From NCBI RefSeq assembly GCF_003367705.1, contig NZ_CP031425.1, forward strand, positions 124,001 to 188,000: a stretch of DNA of 64,000 nucleotides, given 5' to 3'. Below, in pieces: positions 15,740 to 54,508 of this stretch. The first letter of the stretch is position 1; each line of letters opens with the position of its first letter. Origin of the DNA: Microbacterium foliorum. Its GTDB lineage: Bacteria > Actinomycetota > Actinomycetes > Actinomycetales > Microbacteriaceae. The notes beneath the pieces are model-generated. The model saw only the letters and a program-made list of their open reading frames with translations, did no database searches and was not told the origin of the DNA. The position numbers were made by a program, and so were the translations under genes.

Positions 15740-16117
15740 TCACGACTCCGGGGCATAGTCAGCGAATCCGCCGACGACGCGATACCTCGACCCGAGCTCT
15801 GCCTGGATGGCTTCGACGAGAGCGTTCCCTTCAGCTATCCACTGACGCCCTACCTCTGGCTCAGGCCAGTGGATCGTCTTCTGTGGGTTGAGTATGAACT
15901 TCCACTCGTCGTTCCACGCGCGGATCCGTGTTCGAAGCTCGCTCGATAGTGAGGGAGAGAATACTCCGGCCACCCGTTGCGAGCTCCCCCAGTCAGGCAT
16001 GATGGTGAGCACTTCGGGGACATCGCCGGGATCAGGTGTCGACGGCATGTACCGAGTCCATCGGTTCGACAGCCGAATCGTCAAGTGTTCTTCCGGTCGC
16101 ACGTCTCCTGCAAGCAT
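15740..16117 (-). CDS. hypothetical protein
   Basis: 125 residues from the chosen ATG (MLAGDVRPEE). The ribosome binding site is weak, and a longer in-frame start exists at 16297, but the extra residues look like Arg-rich read-through. The core has DEWKFILNPQKTIHWPEPE and a Tyr/Val-rich C-terminus. I recognise no family. The stretch 15730-16330 is somewhat less GC-rich than its neighbours and lies convergent to the DeoR gene, so it may be a small acquired piece. Function unknown. Confidence 0.5.
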   Translation of the reverse strand: MLAGDVRPEEHLTIRLSNRWTRYMPSTPDPGDVPEVLTIMPDWGSSQRVAGVFSPSLSSELRTRIRAWNDEWKFILNPQKTIHWPEPEVGRQWIAEGNALVEAIQAELGSRYRVVGGFADYAPES

Positions 16118-16330
16118 CACCCCTGCCGGACTCCATGCGGGGATGCCGCGACCCTTCTCGCGACATCCCCGGAGCAGATGGTGTCTGTCGGCCTCACACT
16201 CCCCAGTGCACGAGGTACCCCATACCGACTGCGCCTCCCTCGCACTCCGTCTCCGAAGCCCTTCGCGTGGCACCTTCTGGAGATAAGGAGAGAGCATCCG
16301 ACGTTCTGATACATCGAGTGGAGACTTTTC

Positions 16331-18766
16331 TCAGAGCCCGCTCCCGTGGCACTGGAAGGGGGCTTTCAACCCGGTCGATTCGGATGCGGCGGCCAGGGCG
16401 ACAGCCGGAGCGACACCGGCCGCGAGCTGGTCGTGCACTGCTCCGAGCAGCTCGCACGCCACGTCGTCGGCGACCACGACAGGCGCCGCGATGACGCAGC
16501 GCGTGCCCGCGTGCAGCCAGACCCTGGTCATGCCCAGCGCCTCCTCGCCCCAGCGCACGGATGAGCGGCCGAGCTCGCACGCCGAGAGCACCACAGTGGC
16601 GGGTGCGCGTGCGATGAGATCGACGTCGTATCCGAACAGGGTGCCGTCGGCGAGCTCGAAGCCGGAGAACAGCGGGTTGTCGACCGCGTGACGCCCGTGC
16701 GCGGCGATGTGCAGGATGTCGACGTCTTCGGCGAGTGCGGTGACCGCGGAGACCCGGGCGTCGTCGCCTCCGAGCACCGTGGCGTCCTGCCACGCCGCCG
16801 CCGCTCGACGCACCTCCTCGTCGGCGCGCGCGACCCGCGGGCCGGTCGCGAAGCCGGCGGCGACCTGCGCGATCGTGGCAGGTGCCGGAGCGATGTCACC
16901 GAGCCAGCGCGAGACCGACGTCGCGAGGGTGAACGGCGTTCCCGACATCCCCGGGAGCATCGCCCAGGGGACGCCCGCCAGAATGCCGGGAATCGTCAAC
17001 ACCAGCCTCCGCGCTCCCCCCGCGGCCGCGCGCACCGGGGCGAGGAGGGCGTCGTCGAGCACCCGGAGCCGGTCGTCGAGCGAGCGGGAGACGAGCGCCG
17101 CCATCGCACCACCGCGGGTCAGCGCCGCGACGTCGAGATCGGCGCGGAGTCCGTCGAGCGCATCCTGGATGCGTGCCCACGACAGCTCGACGATCGATGA
17201 GTCCGATGCCGTCACCACCACGCACAGCAGCTCGGTGCGCGTGTAGATGTAGGCCAGGATCGCGGTGTCGCCGTCGAGGGTCGAACGGGTCTCTCGCAGT
17301 CCGAGGCGTTCGCGGTTGCCGCCGGCTCCGGTCGACGACCACTGCCGGTCGCGCACCCGGTCGCGCAACTCGCGCACACGGGTGTCGGTCGTCCAGTCGG
17401 ACCCGGCGAGGTCGGCGCGCAGCATCCGCAGCTCCGCGAGATCGGCCGACAGCTCCGCGTCGTGCGGAGGCCGCACCGGTGCGACCTGCTGGCTCAGATG
17501 TCTGGCGCGCTCCGACCACTCGAACACCACCTCAGGGTCGTGGGAGCGAGCGGCGGCCGCGAGGCCGGTGAACATCAGCTCGGTGCCGTGCATCGCCACG
17601 GATGCCTGCAGGTCGAGCGCGCCGAAGGACTGCTGCCAGGTGGTGAGCAGGTCGAGTCCGGCGGCGGCGGCGCGGCGGGCGTCGGCGTCCCTCCCCGCCG
17701 CGGATGCTCGCGCGGCGCGCACCTCGTGGGCACGCAGCCGCAGGGGCATCGGGGCGTCGGGGGCGAGCCGCGGCATCCGTCCCCCGTCGGCGAACCGGGC
17801 CGTGAGCGACAGGGCGGCGGCTTCGGTGCGGAACCCGCCGCGGGTGAGCGCGGCGGCGGTGCGGGTGAAATCGGCGGCGGCCGGCGGACGTGTCGGGTGG
17901 GCGCGCAGCCCGGCCTCGAGGCGCACGGCCTCTGCACGAGCCGCCCACCCTTCACTGCCGAGGGTGGCGAACCGGCGGGATGCGGTCGCCGCGGCGCGCT
18001 CGGCGGCGACCGCGTCGTGCCGCAGCAGTGACCGGGCGAGGTGGAACTCGGCCTCCCCCCGGGCCTGCCGCATCCGCTGCGCTCCGAACTGCACGGCGAC
18101 CGTGCCGAGAAGCTCCTCGGCCTCGGTCGTGAGTCCGGCATCGCGCAGCACCTCGGCCCGGTCGAGATCGCTGATGGCGGCGGCGAGGTCGCTGGTCGCC
18201 GCGAGCATGGGGCGTGACCTCGTCATGAGGGCGAGAGCGGTGACGAGGTCTCCGCCGAGCAGCGCGGCGTAGCCGAGATTGTGTCGCGCTTCGGCGAGGG
18301 GCTCCTGCGCGTCATGCGCCTCGTAGGTCGCGATGGCCCGCTGCAGATCGTCGGCGCAGCGGTCGAGACGGTGCCGTTGCATGTCGACCATGGCCCGGCT
18401 CATGCGCAGATTCGCGCCCTCGATCGAGTCGTCGTCGAGGCCGTTGATCGCGGTGGTCAGCGAGAGCTCCGCCTCGTCGAGCCGTCCGCCGTGCATCAGC
18501 AGCGTGCCGAGCTGGCCGTGTGAGAGTGCGACGGTCTCGGCGCTGAGCCCCGGTCGCGACAGCGTCTCGCGGGAGAGCTGCTCGGCCGCGGCGGGCTGGC
18601 CGGTCTGCGCGAGCACGTACGCCATGGTGCCGTCGATGCGGGCGCGCAGATCCTGGTCATCGGTGCGCGACGATGCGGCGGTGAGGGCGCGGCGTGCCTG
18701 CGCGAACCGTCGGGAGTTGGCCGCGTCGACGCCGCGCCGATGCAGCACGTGCGCGGTCAGGGGCAT
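16331..18766 (-). CDS. TPR-CHAT protease
   Basis: About 811 residues. The N-terminal two thirds is alpha-helical with tetratricopeptide-type repeats (Ala-rich pairs such as LSHGQLGTLLMHGGRLDEAE and ARHNLGYAALLGGDLVTALA). The C-terminal about 300 residues form a CHAT caspase-like peptidase: His in ILHIAAHGRH (about residue 690) and Cys in VVLSACELG (about 730) are the expected catalytic pair, with NPLFSGFELADG between them. No signal peptide or membrane segment, so cytoplasmic. TPR-CHAT proteins act as switchable proteases in several bacterial conflict systems. It is the last gene of the cluster with the subtilisin, small protein and sigma factor. The start is GTG-ATG at 18769/18766 without a clear ribosome binding site. 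Confidence 0.85.
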   Translation of the reverse strand: MPLTAHVLHRRGVDAANSRRFAQARRALTAASSRTDDQDLRARIDGTMAYVLAQTGQPAAAEQLSRETLSRPGLSAETVALSHGQLGTLLMHGGRLDEAELSLTTAINGLDDDSIEGANLRMSRAMVDMQRHRLDRCADDLQRAIATYEAHDAQEPLAEARHNLGYAALLGGDLVTALALMTRSRPMLAATSDLAAAISDLDRAEVLRDAGLTTEAEELLGTVAVQFGAQRMRQARGEAEFHLARSLLRHDAVAAERAAATASRRFATLGSEGWAARAEAVRLEAGLRAHPTRPPAAADFTRTAAALTRGGFRTEAAALSLTARFADGGRMPRLAPDAPMPLRLRAHEVRAARASAAGRDADARRAAAAGLDLLTTWQQSFGALDLQASVAMHGTELMFTGLAAAARSHDPEVVFEWSERARHLSQQVAPVRPPHDAELSADLAELRMLRADLAGSDWTTDTRVRELRDRVRDRQWSSTGAGGNRERLGLRETRSTLDGDTAILAYIYTRTELLCVVVTASDSSIVELSWARIQDALDGLRADLDVAALTRGGAMAALVSRSLDDRLRVLDDALLAPVRAAAGGARRLVLTIPGILAGVPWAMLPGMSGTPFTLATSVSRWLGDIAPAPATIAQVAAGFATGPRVARADEEVRRAAAAWQDATVLGGDDARVSAVTALAEDVDILHIAAHGRHAVDNPLFSGFELADGTLFGYDVDLIARAPATVVLSACELGRSSVRWGEEALGMTRVWLHAGTRCVIAAPVVVADDVACELLGAVHDQLAAGVAPAVALAAASESTGLKAPFQCHGSGL

Positions 18767-18910
18767 CACACCAGAATGCCGGTCTGCGGGGCGTCAGGGA
18801 AGGGCCGCGGCGGCATCCGAAGCGCCGGATGGCTGAACGATGCCCGACTGGCTGACGATTCCGTCCCCTTCGGTCAGCCGTCCGGGCGTTCGTCAGCCAC
18901 CCGAGCGCGC

Positions 18911-20479
18911 CTACCCCCGCTCGACCGGCGTCGGCAGCGTCTTCAGCACCGCTGCGACCGCCTTCGCCGCGGCGGCAGGAGTCACCCCCTGCGTCGGAAC
19001 CGTTCCGAGTTCGGCCGCGACGCGTCCCGCGACGTAGGGCGCCGAGAACGAGGTGCCGCTCCAGATCGCGAAGCCGCCCCGATAGTCGTCGGGATCGATC
19101 GTCTCGCGGCGCAGTCCCTCGACGTCCGCCCGGGTGCTCGCCTGCTCGCCGCCGACGAACGCCGGAGACGTGCTGACGACGGCCGCACCCGGTGCGTACG
19201 TCTGCACCCAGGGCCCGACGTTCGAGAACAGGGCGACCGAGCGGGCCGACGGGTTGAGGGCGCCCACCGACACATGCGGAGCATCGCGGTCACGGGGGAT
19301 GCCGTTGTCGGCCCCCGGCCACGACCACAGCGAGGCGGGGAACGAGGGGCGGTCGATCGCGTCGTTGCCCGCCGAGCACACGACGACGCATCCGAGCTGC
19401 CGCGCCGTGGTGAGCAGCGCATGCAGGGTCCGGCTGAACAGTCCGTCGACCGGCGTCTCGTGGTAGTACCCGAGCGACAGATTCAGCACGTCGATCGGAT
19501 GCCCGGTCTTCGGGTCCTCACGGTGGCGCCGCAGCAGTTCCACGACCTGCGCGACCGTGGTGAGGAACGTGCTCTCGTCGATCACCCCGAGCGCCCCGGC
19601 CATGCGGATCGACAGGATGTCGGCATCCGGTGCCGCCTGGCGGATGATGCCGGCGATGAAGGTGCCGTGCCCGGCGACGGCGTCGATCTCACCGTCGAGC
19701 TGCCCGTACAGGTCGGGGTACCGCTCGGGGTCGGCGTCGTCGGTGAGGCCGACCGGAACACCGTCGAGCTCGATGTGTCGGGTCACCACGTCATCCGGCA
19801 GCCAGTCGTGCACACCGCATCCGGTGTCGAGCACGGCCACGACGGGGCGGCGTCCGCGCTTCGGGGCCGCCGCGCGCTGCGGCGCCGCTCCCACCCAGGC
19901 CACCGGCTGCCGCGCACCGCGCCCGGGCTCGAGGTAGTCATCGCTGCCGCCGGCACCCGCACCGCGCACCGGGTTGGTGCGGCTGAACGGGTTGGTGCGG
20001 CTGAAGGGATTCGTGCGACTGAACGGATTGAGCCCCACCGGGTCGATCGACAGCACGTGCTCGAGGCTGGTTCGCGGCATCGATGTGCGGGAGCTGCGCC
20101 GTGCGCGCTGCAGGACGCGCCATGCGTCGGGAGGGACCGGTGACTCGCCGCGGGTGGGTTCGTCGGGGGTGGTCAGCTGTGCGCGCAGGAATCCGGGGAC
20201 TCCCGGCGCCAGCGGGCCTCGGACGACGGCATCGTCGTCGGGTTCGAGCTCGAGGGTCCACCCGAACGTTCCCGCGGCCTCCTGCAGCTCCTTGATCTCC
20301 CGGTCGTAGCCCTCCTGATCGTCGTCCTGATCCTGCGTGATCAGCAGTCGATCCTGCAGATAGGCGGTCGGGAACGCTCTGACCCCGCCCACCGGTTCGA
20401 TCGAGGGATCGAGCGCCGTGCCGCGCCTGATCGATCCTTCCGCTCTGTCCTGCCAGGTCCATCCCGCGGGCTGTTCCAT
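18911..20479 (-). CDS. S8 family serine peptidase (cytoplasmic subtilisin)
   Basis: 522 residues. About 145 residues of unassigned N-terminal domain are followed by three NPFSRT repeats (residues 151-168), a linker, and a subtilisin domain. The catalytic residues are all present: Asp218 in AVLDTGCGVH, His271 in GHGTFIAGI, oxyanion Asn372 in SAGND, Ser477 in GTSFSAPYVAG. No signal peptide is visible, unusual for subtilases, so it probably works inside the cell. A good AGGAGAGG ribosome binding site precedes the ATG. The neighbours suggest it is part of a regulated proteolytic pathway; CHAT-mediated activation at the repeat linker is only an inference. Confidence 0.88.
   Translation of the reverse strand: MEQPAGWTWQDRAEGSIRRGTALDPSIEPVGGVRAFPTAYLQDRLLITQDQDDDQEGYDREIKELQEAAGTFGWTLELEPDDDAVVRGPLAPGVPGFLRAQLTTPDEPTRGESPVPPDAWRVLQRARRSSRTSMPRTSLEHVLSIDPVGLNPFSRTNPFSRTNPFSRTNPVRGAGAGGSDDYLEPGRGARQPVAWVGAAPQRAAAPKRGRRPVVAVLDTGCGVHDWLPDDVVTRHIELDGVPVGLTDDADPERYPDLYGQLDGEIDAVAGHGTFIAGIIRQAAPDADILSIRMAGALGVIDESTFLTTVAQVVELLRRHREDPKTGHPIDVLNLSLGYYHETPVDGLFSRTLHALLTTARQLGCVVVCSAGNDAIDRPSFPASLWSWPGADNGIPRDRDAPHVSVGALNPSARSVALFSNVGPWVQTYAPGAAVVSTSPAFVGGEQASTRADVEGLRRETIDPDDYRGGFAIWSGTSFSAPYVAGRVAAELGTVPTQGVTPAAAAKAVAAVLKTLPTPVERG
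19976..20029 (-). repeat. three 18-bp in-frame tandem repeats (NPFSRT linker)
   Basis: Units at 20012-20029, 19994-20011 and 19976-19993 differ at a few silent third positions and encode NPFSRT three times, then NPV. Silent divergence with constant amino acids argues that the peptide is under selection rather than the array being a recent slippage product. Confidence 0.85.
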
Positions 20480-20524
20480 CGTCGGTCCTCTCCTCGCGGG
20501 CGCACCCGCATCCTGCGCGGGTCC

Positions 20525-20652
20525 ACCCGCGGTGTGTGCGGGCGAACCCGCGGTGTGTGTGGTGTGTCACGCGCGGTCTGCGTGGTCTGCGTGGATTCTC
20601 ACGCGCGGTGCGTGCGGGCCGATCCGCCTCGCGTGCGGGCCGATCCGCCTCG
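20525..20652. repeat. 21-bp-period repeats between two genes of the protease cluster
   Basis: The 190-bp gap between the subtilisin gene and the small-protein gene is built from degenerate 21-bp units. The clearest pair is 20611-20631 and 20632-20652 (identical, starting CGTGCGGGCCGATCC); ACCCGCGGTGTGTG recurs at 20525 and 20546. I see no gene in this gap. Confidence 0.6.
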
Positions 20653-20669
20653 CGCCCCACGGCGGTCGA

Positions 20670-21152
20670 TCACAGCTCGAACTGCGGGGTCGACAGCGTG
20701 CGCGTCTCATCGCCGATGGTGGTGGAAAGGCGCACGAGTGTCAGGCCGTCGGGCACCTCGTCGAACACGAACCGTCCGGTCGCGCTCGCTGTGGTGGTGC
20801 GGACGTTCTCGCCCTGCGCGAGCTCGATCGACCCGGCGGCCGCGTCGACCCAGCCGTCGACGCGGTGCGCGCCGGTCGCGGTGCCGGTGACGTGGAGCAG
20901 GATGTTCGTGGTGCCGTCGCTGAACTGCAGGGTCAGAGCATCTGCATCTCCCCGCACCGCGCCGAGCGGCTCGTCGACGAGGGTGAGCAGCGCGTACTCG
21001 GCCGAGAGCCCGTCGGCGGCCACCGCCGCGATCATGCGATCGATGAGGCTCGCCGGCATCGGGTCCACGCTGCGCCAGAGCGAGCGCAGGTGGGCGAACA
21101 GTTCAGCATCCTCGTGGTTGTCGCCGCCGTTGCTGCCATCGTTCTCACTCAT
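20670..21152 (-). CDS. small protein with predicted beta-sandwich C-terminus, protease cluster
   Basis: 160 residues. The N-terminal half is acidic and helical (LFAHLRSLWRSVDPMPASLI, then a helix), and the C-terminal half alternates hydrophobic and polar residues with GRFVFDEVPDGLTLVRL, the pattern of carboxypeptidase-regulatory-like beta-sandwich domains. Its ATG overlaps the sigma factor stop (ATGA), so the two are translationally coupled. This is the place where an anti-sigma factor is often found, but I see no known anti-sigma motif (no zinc HXXXCXXC). Role unknown; adaptor or regulator is inference. Confidence 0.7.
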   Translation of the reverse strand: MSENDGSNGGDNHEDAELFAHLRSLWRSVDPMPASLIDRMIAAVAADGLSAEYALLTLVDEPLGAVRGDADALTLQFSDGTTNILLHVTGTATGAHRVDGWVDAAAGSIELAQGENVRTTTASATGRFVFDEVPDGLTLVRLSTTIGDETRTLSTPQFEL

Positions 21153-21781
21153 GAGCGTCCCTCCATCCGTGGGGTCGTGTCGAGCAGGTCGCGCAGCTTC
21201 GCCAGGCAGCGCTGGCGGGTCGGCCCGATGCTGCCCACCGGCATCGCCAGATCGGCCGCGAGGCGGGCGTAGTCGGGGCGCTCTTCGAAGGCGATCACTC
21301 GCAGCAGCCGCTGGCAGCGTTCGGCGAGGTTCTGCACCGCCGCCCACAGCCGCCGGCTCTCGTCGCCGATCGCGGCATGGTCTTCGGCCGACTGCTGCTC
21401 GGGAAGGAGCGCGTCGAGAGCATCCGCCTCCGTCGTGTCGAGACGGTTGAGTGCCTTGCCCGCGCGCCAGGCTTCTCGGCGGGCGGTGGTGGTGAGCCAG
21501 GCGGAGACGGCCTTCGGGTCGGAGATCGAGCGGTGGCCGCGGACCAGCTGCAGCCACGTCGTCTGGATGACGTCTTCGGCGAGCGTGCGCTCGAGCCCGT
21601 AGGCGCGCACGACATGCCAGAGGACAGGGGTCATCAGCCGCACGAGGTCTTCCATCGCGCGGCTGTCGCCGTCCCGCCATGCGTCGAAGTGGCCGGCGGC
21701 ACGCGTCCAGCGCGCCGCTCCGTCGTCCGGTGCAGGATCGAGGCCGGCGCCATCGGGTGCGCCGTCGATCATGAGTCCCAT
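21149..21781 (-). CDS. ECF-type RNA polymerase sigma factor
   Basis: About 210 residues. Region 2 runs through MEDLVRLMTPVLWHVVRAYG and LAEDVIQTTWLQLV with the following SDPKAVSAWLTTTARREAWR. Region 4 is a helix-turn-helix with QRLLRVIAFEERPDYARLAADL and the recognition helix VGSIGPTRQRCLAKLRDLL. The start is ATG 21781 or 21772; no clear ribosome binding site is seen. First gene of the leftward cluster sigma, small protein, subtilisin, TPR-CHAT. A plausible reading is that the proteases control, or are controlled by, this sigma factor. Confidence 0.85.
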   Translation of the reverse strand: MGLMIDGAPDGAGLDPAPDDGAARWTRAAGHFDAWRDGDSRAMEDLVRLMTPVLWHVVRAYGLERTLAEDVIQTTWLQLVRGHRSISDPKAVSAWLTTTARREAWRAGKALNRLDTTEADALDALLPEQQSAEDHAAIGDESRRLWAAVQNLAERCQRLLRVIAFEERPDYARLAADLAMPVGSIGPTRQRCLAKLRDLLDTTPRMEGRS

Positions 21782-21879: not shown

Positions 21880-22088
21880 GACGGGCCGGATGCAGGAGGG
21901 AGGCACGGATGCAGGACGGGAGTCGGGTTCTCATCCTGCAGACGTGCCGGGGTCCTGCATTCGGACGGAGGAAGGGGACGGCCGAAAACGGGTGACGGGC
22001 CGGATGCAGGAGGGGGGCACGGATGCAGGACGGGAGTCGGGTTCTCATCCTGCAGACGTGCCGGGGTCCTGCATTCGGACGGAGGAAG
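21880..22088. repeat. 95-bp direct repeat, each copy a palindrome (TGCAGGA family copies 2 and 3)
   Basis: 21880-21974 and 21994-22088 are identical except for one base (21901 A versus 22015 G). Within each, arms of about 26-31 bp face each other (21891-21916 with 21934-21959; 22005-22030 with 22048-22073), carrying TGCAGGAnnnnGGCACG as in the copy at 7625-7703. The downstream part (22089-22150) is G/A-rich with repeated GGGGGACGA. Located in the 437-bp gap between the sigma factor gene and the small membrane gene; no gene is seen in that gap. Confidence 0.85.
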
Positions 22089-28584: not shown

Positions 28585-28660
28585 TGAACCTGGGTCGTGT
28601 CAACCCTTCTGCGTGCCGGCCCCCGCCTGCATCCGCGTCGTCGCTGCGGAGTCGGGTCGG

Positions 28661-29064
28661 GCGGGGTCACTTTCGCACCCTCGCTGGCGCCCCCTACTCG
28701 CGCGGGGTCACTTTGGCATCCTCGCGGGCGCCCAGGCTTGGGCGGGGTCACTTTGGCATCCTCGCGGGCGCCCAGGCTTGGGCGGGGTCACTTCTGCATC
28801 GGAAAAGCTCGATAGCGGTGCGGAAATGACCCCGCTGGGTGGGGCGGTGCGGAAGCGGCCCCGCTGGGTGGGGCGGTGCGGAAGTGGCCCCGCTGGGTGG
28901 GGCGGCGTCGCTTCGCATCCTCGCTGGCGCGTCCACACTGGGCGGGGTCACTTTGGCATCCTCGCGGGCGCCCAGGCTTGGGCGGGGTCACTTCTGCATC
29001 GGAAGAGCTCGATAGCGGTGCGGAAATGACCCCGCTGGGTGGGGCGGTGCGGAAGCGGCCCCGC
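28661..29064. repeat. array of GCGGGGTCAYTTYNGCA boxes, non-coding
   Basis: Twelve copies of a 17-bp box in both orientations. Forward copies are at 28661, 28702, 28742, 28782, 28902 (degenerate), 28942 and 28982; reverse copies at 28819, 28848, 28877, 29019 and 29048. Facing copies can form hairpins. A 131-bp block (28741-28871) is repeated 200 bp later (28941-29071) with one mismatch. Reading frames through it are repetitive on both strands and I do not regard them as genes. 29072-29150 is a low-complexity GGCGAGC tract. Confidence 0.8.
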
Positions 29065-46165: not shown

Positions 46166-46204
46166 GATGCCCTCAGCCTACTTCTCGGGGTTCCCGCCGT
46201 CGCC

Positions 46205-46312
46205 GGCTCCCGGGGCGCCCGCCGGTGCCGGTTCCCGGGGCGCCCGCCGGTGCTGGTTCCCGGGGCGCCCGCCGGTGCCGGTTCCCGGCGGGGGCCGTTC
46301 CCGGCGGGGGCC
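46205..46312. repeat. tandem 25-bp and 16-bp GC-rich repeats
   Basis: Three copies of a 25-bp unit (GGTTCCCGGGGCGCC then CGCCGGTGCC; 46205-46279) followed by two 16-17-bp units GTTCCCGGCGGGGGCC (46280-46312). They run directly into the GTTCAC element at 46313. No gene in this gap. Confidence 0.75.
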
Positions 46313-53271: not shown

Positions 53272-53460
53272 GGTGAGGTGAGGTGAGGCTCGGGGCTCGG
53301 GGCTCGGGGCTCGGGGCTCGGGGCTTGGGGCCGGGGCGGGGTCGGGGCTCGGGGCTCGGGTCGGAGCTCGGGGTCGGAGCTCGGGGTCGGGGCTCGGGGC
53401 CGGGTCGGGGTCGGGGCTTGGGGCCGGGGCGGGGCCGGGTCGGGGTTGGGCTGCTGCGGC
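53272..53460. repeat. G-rich low-complexity tract
   Basis: Starts with repeats of GAGGT after the stop codon and continues as degenerate GGGGCTCGGGGTCGG units, with long runs of four or more Gs on the + strand. It could form G-quadruplexes. Frames run open on both strands because of the repetition; I see no gene. 53461-53603 also shows nothing. Confidence 0.7.
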
Positions 53461-53954: not shown

Positions 53955-54103
53955 CCGCACACTCTAAGCCGCCCCTCTGACATCCGCTCTCCGCGTGCCG
54001 ATACCCTCTGGCGCCCGCCGCTGCTGAACGCGCGACCAGGTGGCGTCCTCCGCGTCAGGAGGCAGCTCCGTGTCGGGCGGAGTCCTCCCTGTCGGGCGGT
54101 GTC

Positions 54104-54508
54104 CTAGCTGTCAGAGGTCCGCCGGTCGGGGAGTTCTCCGCCCGTCGGCGAGACCACCTGAACCGTGTCGGTCCGCACGCCGGGGTGGTCGCGCTGCGTG
54201 TTGGGCGGAGTCCCCCGTGTCAGGTGGCGTCCTCCGCGTCAGGAGGCACCTCCGTGTCGGGCGGAGTTCTCTGCGTGGGGCGGTGGCCTAGCTGTCAGAG
54301 GTCCGCCGGTCGGGGAGTTCTCCGCCCGACGGCGAGACGACCTGAACCGTGTCGGTCCGCACGCCGGGGTGGTCGCACCTCCGTGTCGGGCGGAGTCCTC
54401 TGCGTGGGGCGGTGTCCTAGTTGTCAGAGGTCCGCCGGTCGGGGAGTTCTCCGCCCGACGGCGAGACCACCTGAACCGTGTCGGTCCGCACGCCGGGGTG
54501 GTCGCGCT
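54104..54508 (-). repeat. three copies of an MMPL gene 3' end
   Basis: 54417-54508 is the genuine end of the MMPL gene including its stop. Near-identical copies lie downstream at 54288-54376 and 54104-54195, each including the stop. Between them are further repeats with CCTCC-GCGTCA-GGAGG and CTCCG-TGTCGGG-CGGAG hairpins. The extra copies have no start and are not genes. The rest of 53967-54103 shows only the same hairpin units. Confidence 0.85.

Follow-up and report, generated by a model that had tools for sequence, protein, structure and literature searches.

We describe a four-gene operon of Microbacterium foliorum that encodes an extracytoplasmic function (ECF)-type sigma factor, a 160-aa protein, a cytoplasmic subtilisin and a TPR-CHAT cysteine protease. 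It lies on the minus strand of a 64,000-nucleotide stretch of contig NZ_CP031425.1 (positions 124,001 to 188,000; assembly GCF_003367705.1), hereafter the window, whose numbering is used throughout for this genome. We propose, with a confidence evenly balanced between its being right and wrong, that the operon works as an ECF54-type cytoplasmic switch, in which a sigma factor under the control of proteases has as its output its own operon and a structured RNA. The proposal draws on the conserved gene order, on an array of identical hexapeptides in the subtilisin, on a pair of promoter-like sites before and behind the operon and on a conserved RNA adjoining the second of these sites.

The Operon and Its Conservation

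All four open reading frames (ORFs) are intact and occupy positions 16331 to 21781 of the minus strand. The sigma factor (210 aa, 21149 to 21781), ECF54-like by its context, matched NCBIfam TIGR02937 (2.4e-16) and Pfam Sigma70_r2 (8.3e-9), and its gene shares an ATGA overlap with that of the 160-aa protein (20670 to 21152). They are followed by the subtilisin (family S8, 18911 to 20479), assigned with its N-terminal prodomain from Pfam (Peptidase_S8, 1.6e-22), residue alignment and an AlphaFold2 (AF2) model, and by the 812-aa TPR-CHAT protein (16331 to 18769; Pfam CHAT, 1.3e-27), in which the TPR models were weak and stayed under the Pfam cut-off. The ORF of the latter begins with GTG, and an ATG is present at 18766. 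These coordinates agree with a first-pass annotation made from the sequence alone, which had described four leftward genes in a row with an ATGA overlap of the first two and had made no mention of the hexapeptide array, of the pair of promoter-like sites or of the RNA behind CHAT. That annotation had also stated that both proteases have complete catalytic residues and no signal peptide, and we came to the same result. In an alignment of nine Microbacteriaceae, D218, H271, N372 and S477 of the S8 protein were invariant, giving it the Asp-His-Ser triad and the oxyanion Asn of the family, and the CHAT His and Cys, earlier placed near 690 and 730, were found at residues 691 and 731, counted from the GTG start. 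No signal peptide was apparent in the translations of either protease, which were read without running a predictor. In the M. foliorum genome, which is one 3.57-Mb contig, PF12770 had a single match at E <= 0.001, the CHAT gene, and the S8 protein likewise had a single match.

The co-occurrence of the four genes in related genomes, on which the first-pass annotation had staked its proposal beforehand, was strong. When 199 genomes of the family were searched with the small protein alone, 9 had a match, the window's genome counted, and in 8/8 of the other loci the four genes stood in the same order and on the same strand. An S8 alignment scan, from which the best 80 of at least 492 relatives led to 79 named loci, gave the order sigma factor, small protein, S8 and CHAT on one strand in 73/79, a count that is not representative of S8 proteins in general since the loci were chosen as best S8 matches. 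Among the six exceptions, neither sigma factor nor small protein was found in three, CHAT was not found in two and the S8 gene came last in one; at least three of the six are short contigs. The closest named relatives of the small protein belong to Microbacterium, and in a sample of 394 class genomes 78 contained the protein. In what follows, the close set comprises loci L011 to L097, and the class set the further loci fetched from class genomes. Two variant loci were also seen: in Microbacterium sp. Leaf320 (L019) the sigma factor, small protein and S8 genes are kept with no CHAT match within the locus, and in a genome of the same genus (L011, 10240 to 14300) a phosphonate-type ABC transporter set, named from its translations and mostly on the opposite strand, stands between the S8 and CHAT genes.

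A Hexapeptide Array at the Pro-Mature Junction of the Subtilisin

From the AF2 model of the S8 protein and its comparison with 3whi, residues 39 to 144 (20048 to 20365, minus strand) are predicted to form a prodomain of beta-alpha-beta-beta-alpha-beta fold, and a tandem array of three NPFSRT hexapeptides (residues 151 to 168; 19976 to 20029, minus strand) sits at the pro-mature junction. The alignments behind the AF2 models of this work had 69 and 85 rows, chosen for diversity. The nine aligned S8 proteins share a tandem NP[FY]xxT-like motif between the N-terminal and catalytic domains, and the repeat unit mostly reads P-[FY]-x-x-[TSG]-N. The DNA pattern of the array is unique in the M. foliorum genome, with up to two mismatches permitted.

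The S8 proteins with scores above 250 bits number 100 (that of the window, 87 of the close set and 12 of the class set), and in 97 of them an exact tandem repeat precedes the catalytic His. The array is present in 87/87 close and 8/12 class proteins; it was not found in exact form in the class proteins L131, L134 and L136, and L132, where the repeat match falls outside the linker, was excluded from the array counts. The repeats comprise between 2 and 9 copies, with a period of 6 in 87/97. There are 48 distinct units among 96 arrays, and in 85 of these 96 all copies are identical. Codon differences between adjacent copies were 704 synonymous against 29 non-synonymous with related loci counted repeatedly, and 514 against 23 when one array was taken per unit-and-copy class; the synonymous share of mutational opportunity in the arrays is 0.24-0.29. 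Between close relatives whose S8 proteins are about 93% identical, NPFSRT x3 stands against NPFTRT x3, with every copy changed. Since codons differ between identical copies and all copies switched together in close relatives, selection at the protein level seems to maintain the identity of the copies, while the unit evolves fast. DNA slippage as the sole origin of the array is poorly compatible with the codon differences between copies.

The repeat unit covaries with the TPR part of the CHAT protein. In 72 of the 96 arrays (window left out, hexamers starting with Pro, length limits applied), the distance between units and the distance between TPR parts gave a partial correlation of 0.29 with the other regions removed, a value matched by 0/200 permutations of sequences that are related and hence not independent. 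The other five regions gave values of -0.08 to 0.07, the S8 catalytic domain standing at -0.08 and the prodomain at 0.07. With 458 close pairs the TPR part was again highest (0.27), the sigma factor reaching 0.15 and the catalytic part of CHAT -0.35. As a control, six variable columns at a time were drawn at random from other regions; the TPR value was reached by no set from the S8 linker (0/300) or from the prodomain, the sigma factor and the catalytic part of CHAT (0/150 each). This covariation is suggestive, not proof, that the TPR part of CHAT reads the S8 array. A two-protease cascade wired to an ECF sigma factor had been put forward in the first-pass annotation; a protease circuit tied to the sigma factor is supported, an idea already printed for ECF54, and a link between the two proteases themselves is supported indirectly, through the covariation of repeat and TPR.

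The array could instead be purely self-processing and self-inhibiting, its repeats acting as pseudo-substrates in the active-site cleft, with the number of copies setting the number of cuts needed and CHAT uninvolved. Its position at the pro-mature junction fits such a role, as does the occurrence of Phe or Tyr in second position in 35 of the 40 distinct six-residue units that start with Pro, and for intracellular subtilisins a LIPY/F-type propeptide is described that obstructs the active site with its Pro-Tyr/Phe core (PMC6220982). The S8 protein resembles these enzymes in having no apparent signal peptide and a Pro-Tyr/Phe motif ahead of its catalytic domain, and differs from them by its full prodomain and its 2-9 tandem copies. 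With pro-subtilisin E and pro-Tk-subtilisin (3whi, 4jp8) it shares the fold of prodomain and catalytic domain, and it differs from these by the junction array of 2-9 units and by having no apparent signal peptide. Against pure self-inhibition, the unit is uncorrelated with the S8 catalytic domain and little correlated with the prodomain, it does correlate with the TPR part, and GYGDGV arrays contain no proline. We regard this explanation as unlikely, although it deserves to be kept in view.

The Small Protein as a Candidate Anti-Sigma Factor

The AF2 model of the 160-aa protein (mean pLDDT 84.8, pTM 0.61) consists of helices 12-29 and 36-51, a flexible linker and beta-sandwich strands within residues 72-154. 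The protein is modelled as something other than a peptidase, and Pfam gave CarboxypepD_reg at 0.048 only, under the cut-off. Anti-sigma genes often overlap their sigma genes, as does the gene of the small protein. The model and the gene position make this protein a candidate soluble anti-sigma factor.

Another form of control would have the proteases degrade the sigma factor itself, the system being kept off without an anti-sigma factor. This was proposed for ECF54, around which carboxypeptidase, subtilase and CHAT proteins are conserved (PMC8999054, section 3.3). The proposal counts the carboxypeptidase among the proteases, whereas the protein at gene 2 of our operon is modelled as helices and a beta-sandwich; the overlap of its gene with the sigma gene argues against the proposal as well. 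That the sigma factor of M. foliorum is itself the target seems to us improbable.

A Pair of Promoter-Like Sites

The pattern TGTATCA-N16-CTCCT, derived by reading the sequence upstream of sigma genes, occurs at exactly two sites in the 3.57-Mb genome, and the reversed pattern, used as a control, at none. The first site, P1 (21798 to 21825, minus strand), lies before the sigma gene and is predicted to be an autoregulated promoter; the second, P2 (16286 to 16313, minus strand), lies 17 bp past the CHAT stop codon. With two mismatches allowed, two further matches appeared in the window, at chance level. An exact match is present in 67/149 genomes of the genus, and by our own tally these 149 genomes hold 121 exact sites against 33 for the reversed pattern; in 26 of them, two sites stand on the same strand of one contig at a distance of 5 to 13 kb. 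In the close set, 44 of 81 loci have an exact site before the sigma gene, a number that rises to 71 with the relaxed pattern; behind CHAT, at no more than 76 bases from its last codon, the exact form was found in 35 and the relaxed form in 61 of 80 loci. Controls for the relaxed pattern gave 0 when it was reversed and a background of 25/4350 in random windows. In 38 of the 61 loci with P2, the site lies 19-21 bases past the last CHAT codon. A relaxed site was found in the class set in 10/38 loci before the sigma gene and in 2/27 after CHAT. From these counts we infer that P1 and P2 are ECF54 promoters.

The ORF at 15743-16297 was considered as the product of P2 and rejected: its start lies inside P2, it has no Pfam match, and the conserved feature at this place is the RNA described below. 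In the Nocardioides loci L082, L084, L089, L091 and L092, a gene of about 100 aa stands behind a P2-like site after CHAT, in the place of the RNA. The small proteins of L082, L084, L091 and L092 had no Pfam match above the cut-off, and a chagasin-like inhibitor was discarded as an identity for the Nocardioides proteins in view of the missing Pfam support, L092 having only an ORF126-like match (0.0012, below the cut-off). Genes for an LGFP-repeat protein (L016, 12988-14079) and a LuxR-type regulator (L078, 10972-11640) were also seen behind CHAT, each with a GTATC site before it. Just upstream of P1 lies a 114-bp direct repeat (21880-22088; 1.8 copies, 98% matches), whose 33-nt core has only two occurrences in the window.

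A Conserved Structured RNA behind P2

A conserved stretch of 148 nt directly adjoins P2 (16138 to 16285, minus strand). It carries a UGGGGA motif and a terminator-like 3' hairpin and is a candidate for a new family of structured RNA. It matched no Rfam family, the four hits being far below the gathering scores (best E 1.5). The window stretch folded better than its shuffles (z -2.52, 3/200 as good), and 11/31 predicted pairs were changed on both sides before any model was fitted. A covariance model, R1, was built from 20 sequences out of 25 RNAs and gives 144.6 bits to the window RNA, itself one of the 20. When 28 matches with E <= 2e-5, taken from 28 selected sources, were aligned, 95.1% of the cells formed pairs and 20/32 pairs changed on both sides, with 0/500 shuffles reaching either value, although these counts lean towards the structure since the alignment was fitted to it. 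Outside the training loci, R1 gave strong matches in L022, L026 and L038 and weaker ones in L042, L036, L011, L044, L040, L076, L079, L061 and L073. Hairpin loops of GGGG occur in the 175 nt behind P2 in 20/25 close loci (26 were tried) and 21/27 distant loci, against 14% and 9% in shuffles, and CCCC loops in none of the same loci. In 19/119 genomes of the genus R1 found one copy per genome; 15 of these copies abut an exact P2, 3 are found on the strand of P1, 5.4-9.3 kb beyond it, and one weak match is unlinked.

The stretch could also be a functionless leader with a terminator, P2 being a spare copy of the promoter. The 3' hairpin is indeed terminator-like, albeit without a U run, and R1 misses most distant loci. 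However, several separate stems beyond the terminator-like one co-vary, distant loci too have GGGG loops following P2, and the distance of P2 from the last CHAT codon falls within the same three bases in most loci that have it. We consider a functionless leader quite improbable.

The RNA resembles 6C/B11 RNA (RF01066) as an actinobacterial structured RNA whose hairpin loops are rich in one base, and differs from it in that this base is G, in GGGG loops, and not C. For B11, the mycobacterial relative of 6C, a C-rich loop is reported to bind G tracts near ribosome-binding sites (PMC12395582). A 6C-like RNA with predicted C-rich hairpin loops is found at a separate locus of the M. foliorum genome (43.7 bits, against a gathering score of 47), and that the G-loop RNA opposes 6C is a guess. 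A strong duplex predicted between the two was set aside as evidence of such a link, being uninformative since any G tract pairs with C6 loops.

Comparison with Known Systems

The gene association itself is not new, since the neighbourhood and its proposed proteolytic control are described for ECF54 (PMC8999054). As in that group, an ECF sigma factor is found here with subtilase and CHAT proteins nearby; unlike here, the ECF54 passages of the review mention no repeat array, promoter pair or RNA, and a carboxypeptidase-type protein is named there where our gene 2 is modelled as a non-peptidase. A search of the open-licence literature with few terms found only this review naming ECF54 in this context, and no paper on the array or on the RNA. 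The S8 array, the promoter-like pair and the RNA do not appear in the literature consulted.

The nearest working analogue is CASP, or Craspase, of type III-E CRISPR (Cas7-11, Csx29, Csx30 and CASP-sigma), in which the TPR-CHAT protease Csx29 is reported to cleave Csx30; this protein inhibits an ECF sigma factor for which sites are predicted within the same locus (PMC10028731). A TPR-CHAT protease with an ECF sigma factor is common to both systems, as are, by prediction, an inhibitory partner and autoregulation of the locus, and one difference is the second protease (S8) with its array. None of the eight ORFs scanned around the operon was Cas7-11 or another CRISPR part, no dedicated search having been made; the profile of the small protein did not match Csx30 in the PDB at E <= 1, and the CHAT protein had no PDB match at all. 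We compare the operon with CASP and do not claim it as a member.

The phage response or regulated cell death suggested in the first-pass annotation we consider very unlikely: TPR-CHAT proteases do act in CRISPR systems (PMC10028731), but PADLOC reported no system, with only weak matches in the S8 domain (IetS and subtilase models) and no match at E <= 0.01 to any of the remaining three proteins, and the eight ORFs around the operon include no defence family, the six with Pfam matches all falling in sugar-related or regulator families.

Other tandem repeats of the window lie at 28659-28905, 46182-46288, 53287-53439 and 54037-54505, with units of 40, 29, 25, 7/13 and 184/129 bp.

A Model of the Proposed Switch

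In the ECF54-type switch that we propose, the 160-aa protein, encoded at the usual place of an anti-sigma factor, would hold the sigma factor. By sequence and model the subtilisin is a zymogen in which the array of identical repeats joins prodomain and catalytic domain, and, judging from the covariation, this array would serve as a docking or processing site for TPR-CHAT. Activated CHAT may unleash the subtilisin, or the TPRs may sense array peptides that the subtilisin makes; the proteases would then destroy the anti-sigma protein. The freed sigma factor would transcribe mainly two units, its own operon as a positive feedback and the short RNA behind it, and this RNA, with its GGGG-rich loops, could be an effector on other transcripts or RNAs. 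In a more specific form of the model, which we hold only tentatively and think improbable, the proteases act as a relay that has RNA as its read-out. The TPR part would read a lineage-specific peptide 'barcode', as docking sites or as released signals, and essentially the one product of the sigma factor besides itself would be a GGGG-loop RNA of a new family, capturing RNAs with C-rich loops, such as 6C, or C-rich sites of mRNAs.

Several observations weigh against the proposed switch. In 40 of the places that hold the small protein in class genomes, fetched for their gene order, the order and strand of the window recur in only 6, though the pair of sigma factor and small protein is kept; S8, sigma factor, small protein and CHAT follow each other in 12, the sigma factor and small protein were the only ones of the four found in 10, some of them at contig ends, and 12 have other arrangements. 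Lower-scoring class S8 proteins show no array by eye, and with regular expressions the CHAT His motif escaped detection in 8/109 and the Cys motif in 15/109 proteins, some of them truncated. The TPR covariation is modest and the TPR part is the longest block; its value was also reached by columns drawn at random from the S8 catalytic domain (11/150) and from the small protein (17/150). The small protein had no match to a known anti-sigma factor in a profile search, and anti-sigma factors were absent from the results of its fold search, which barely tested the helices. Not even a relaxed P2 was found in 19/80 loci, one of which (L047) does carry an exact site beyond its shortened CHAT match, and in some Nocardioides loci the P2-like site stands, by eye, ahead of a small protein gene and not of the RNA. 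R1 reaches E <= 0.05 in only 13/72 sources, P2 and G-rich stretches occur in more distant loci that lack a model match, and some matches are on the minus strand, on the palindromic 3' hairpin. Finally, the GGGG loop of the window RNA is present in one predicted fold and gone in that of a slightly shorter stretch.

ECF54 is listed as regulated by proteolysis from its context alone in the review cited above (PMC8999054), and the operon of M. foliorum offers handles on such a system: a defined promoter-like pair, a candidate anti-sigma protein, a protease array and an RNA. The array is the same in protein and not in DNA, yet is rewritten between close species, which suggests a recognition code that evolves fast and may operate between two proteases. 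If the proposed switch is true, a sigma factor with itself and a single G-looped RNA as its predicted output would represent a read-out of a new kind among actinobacteria.

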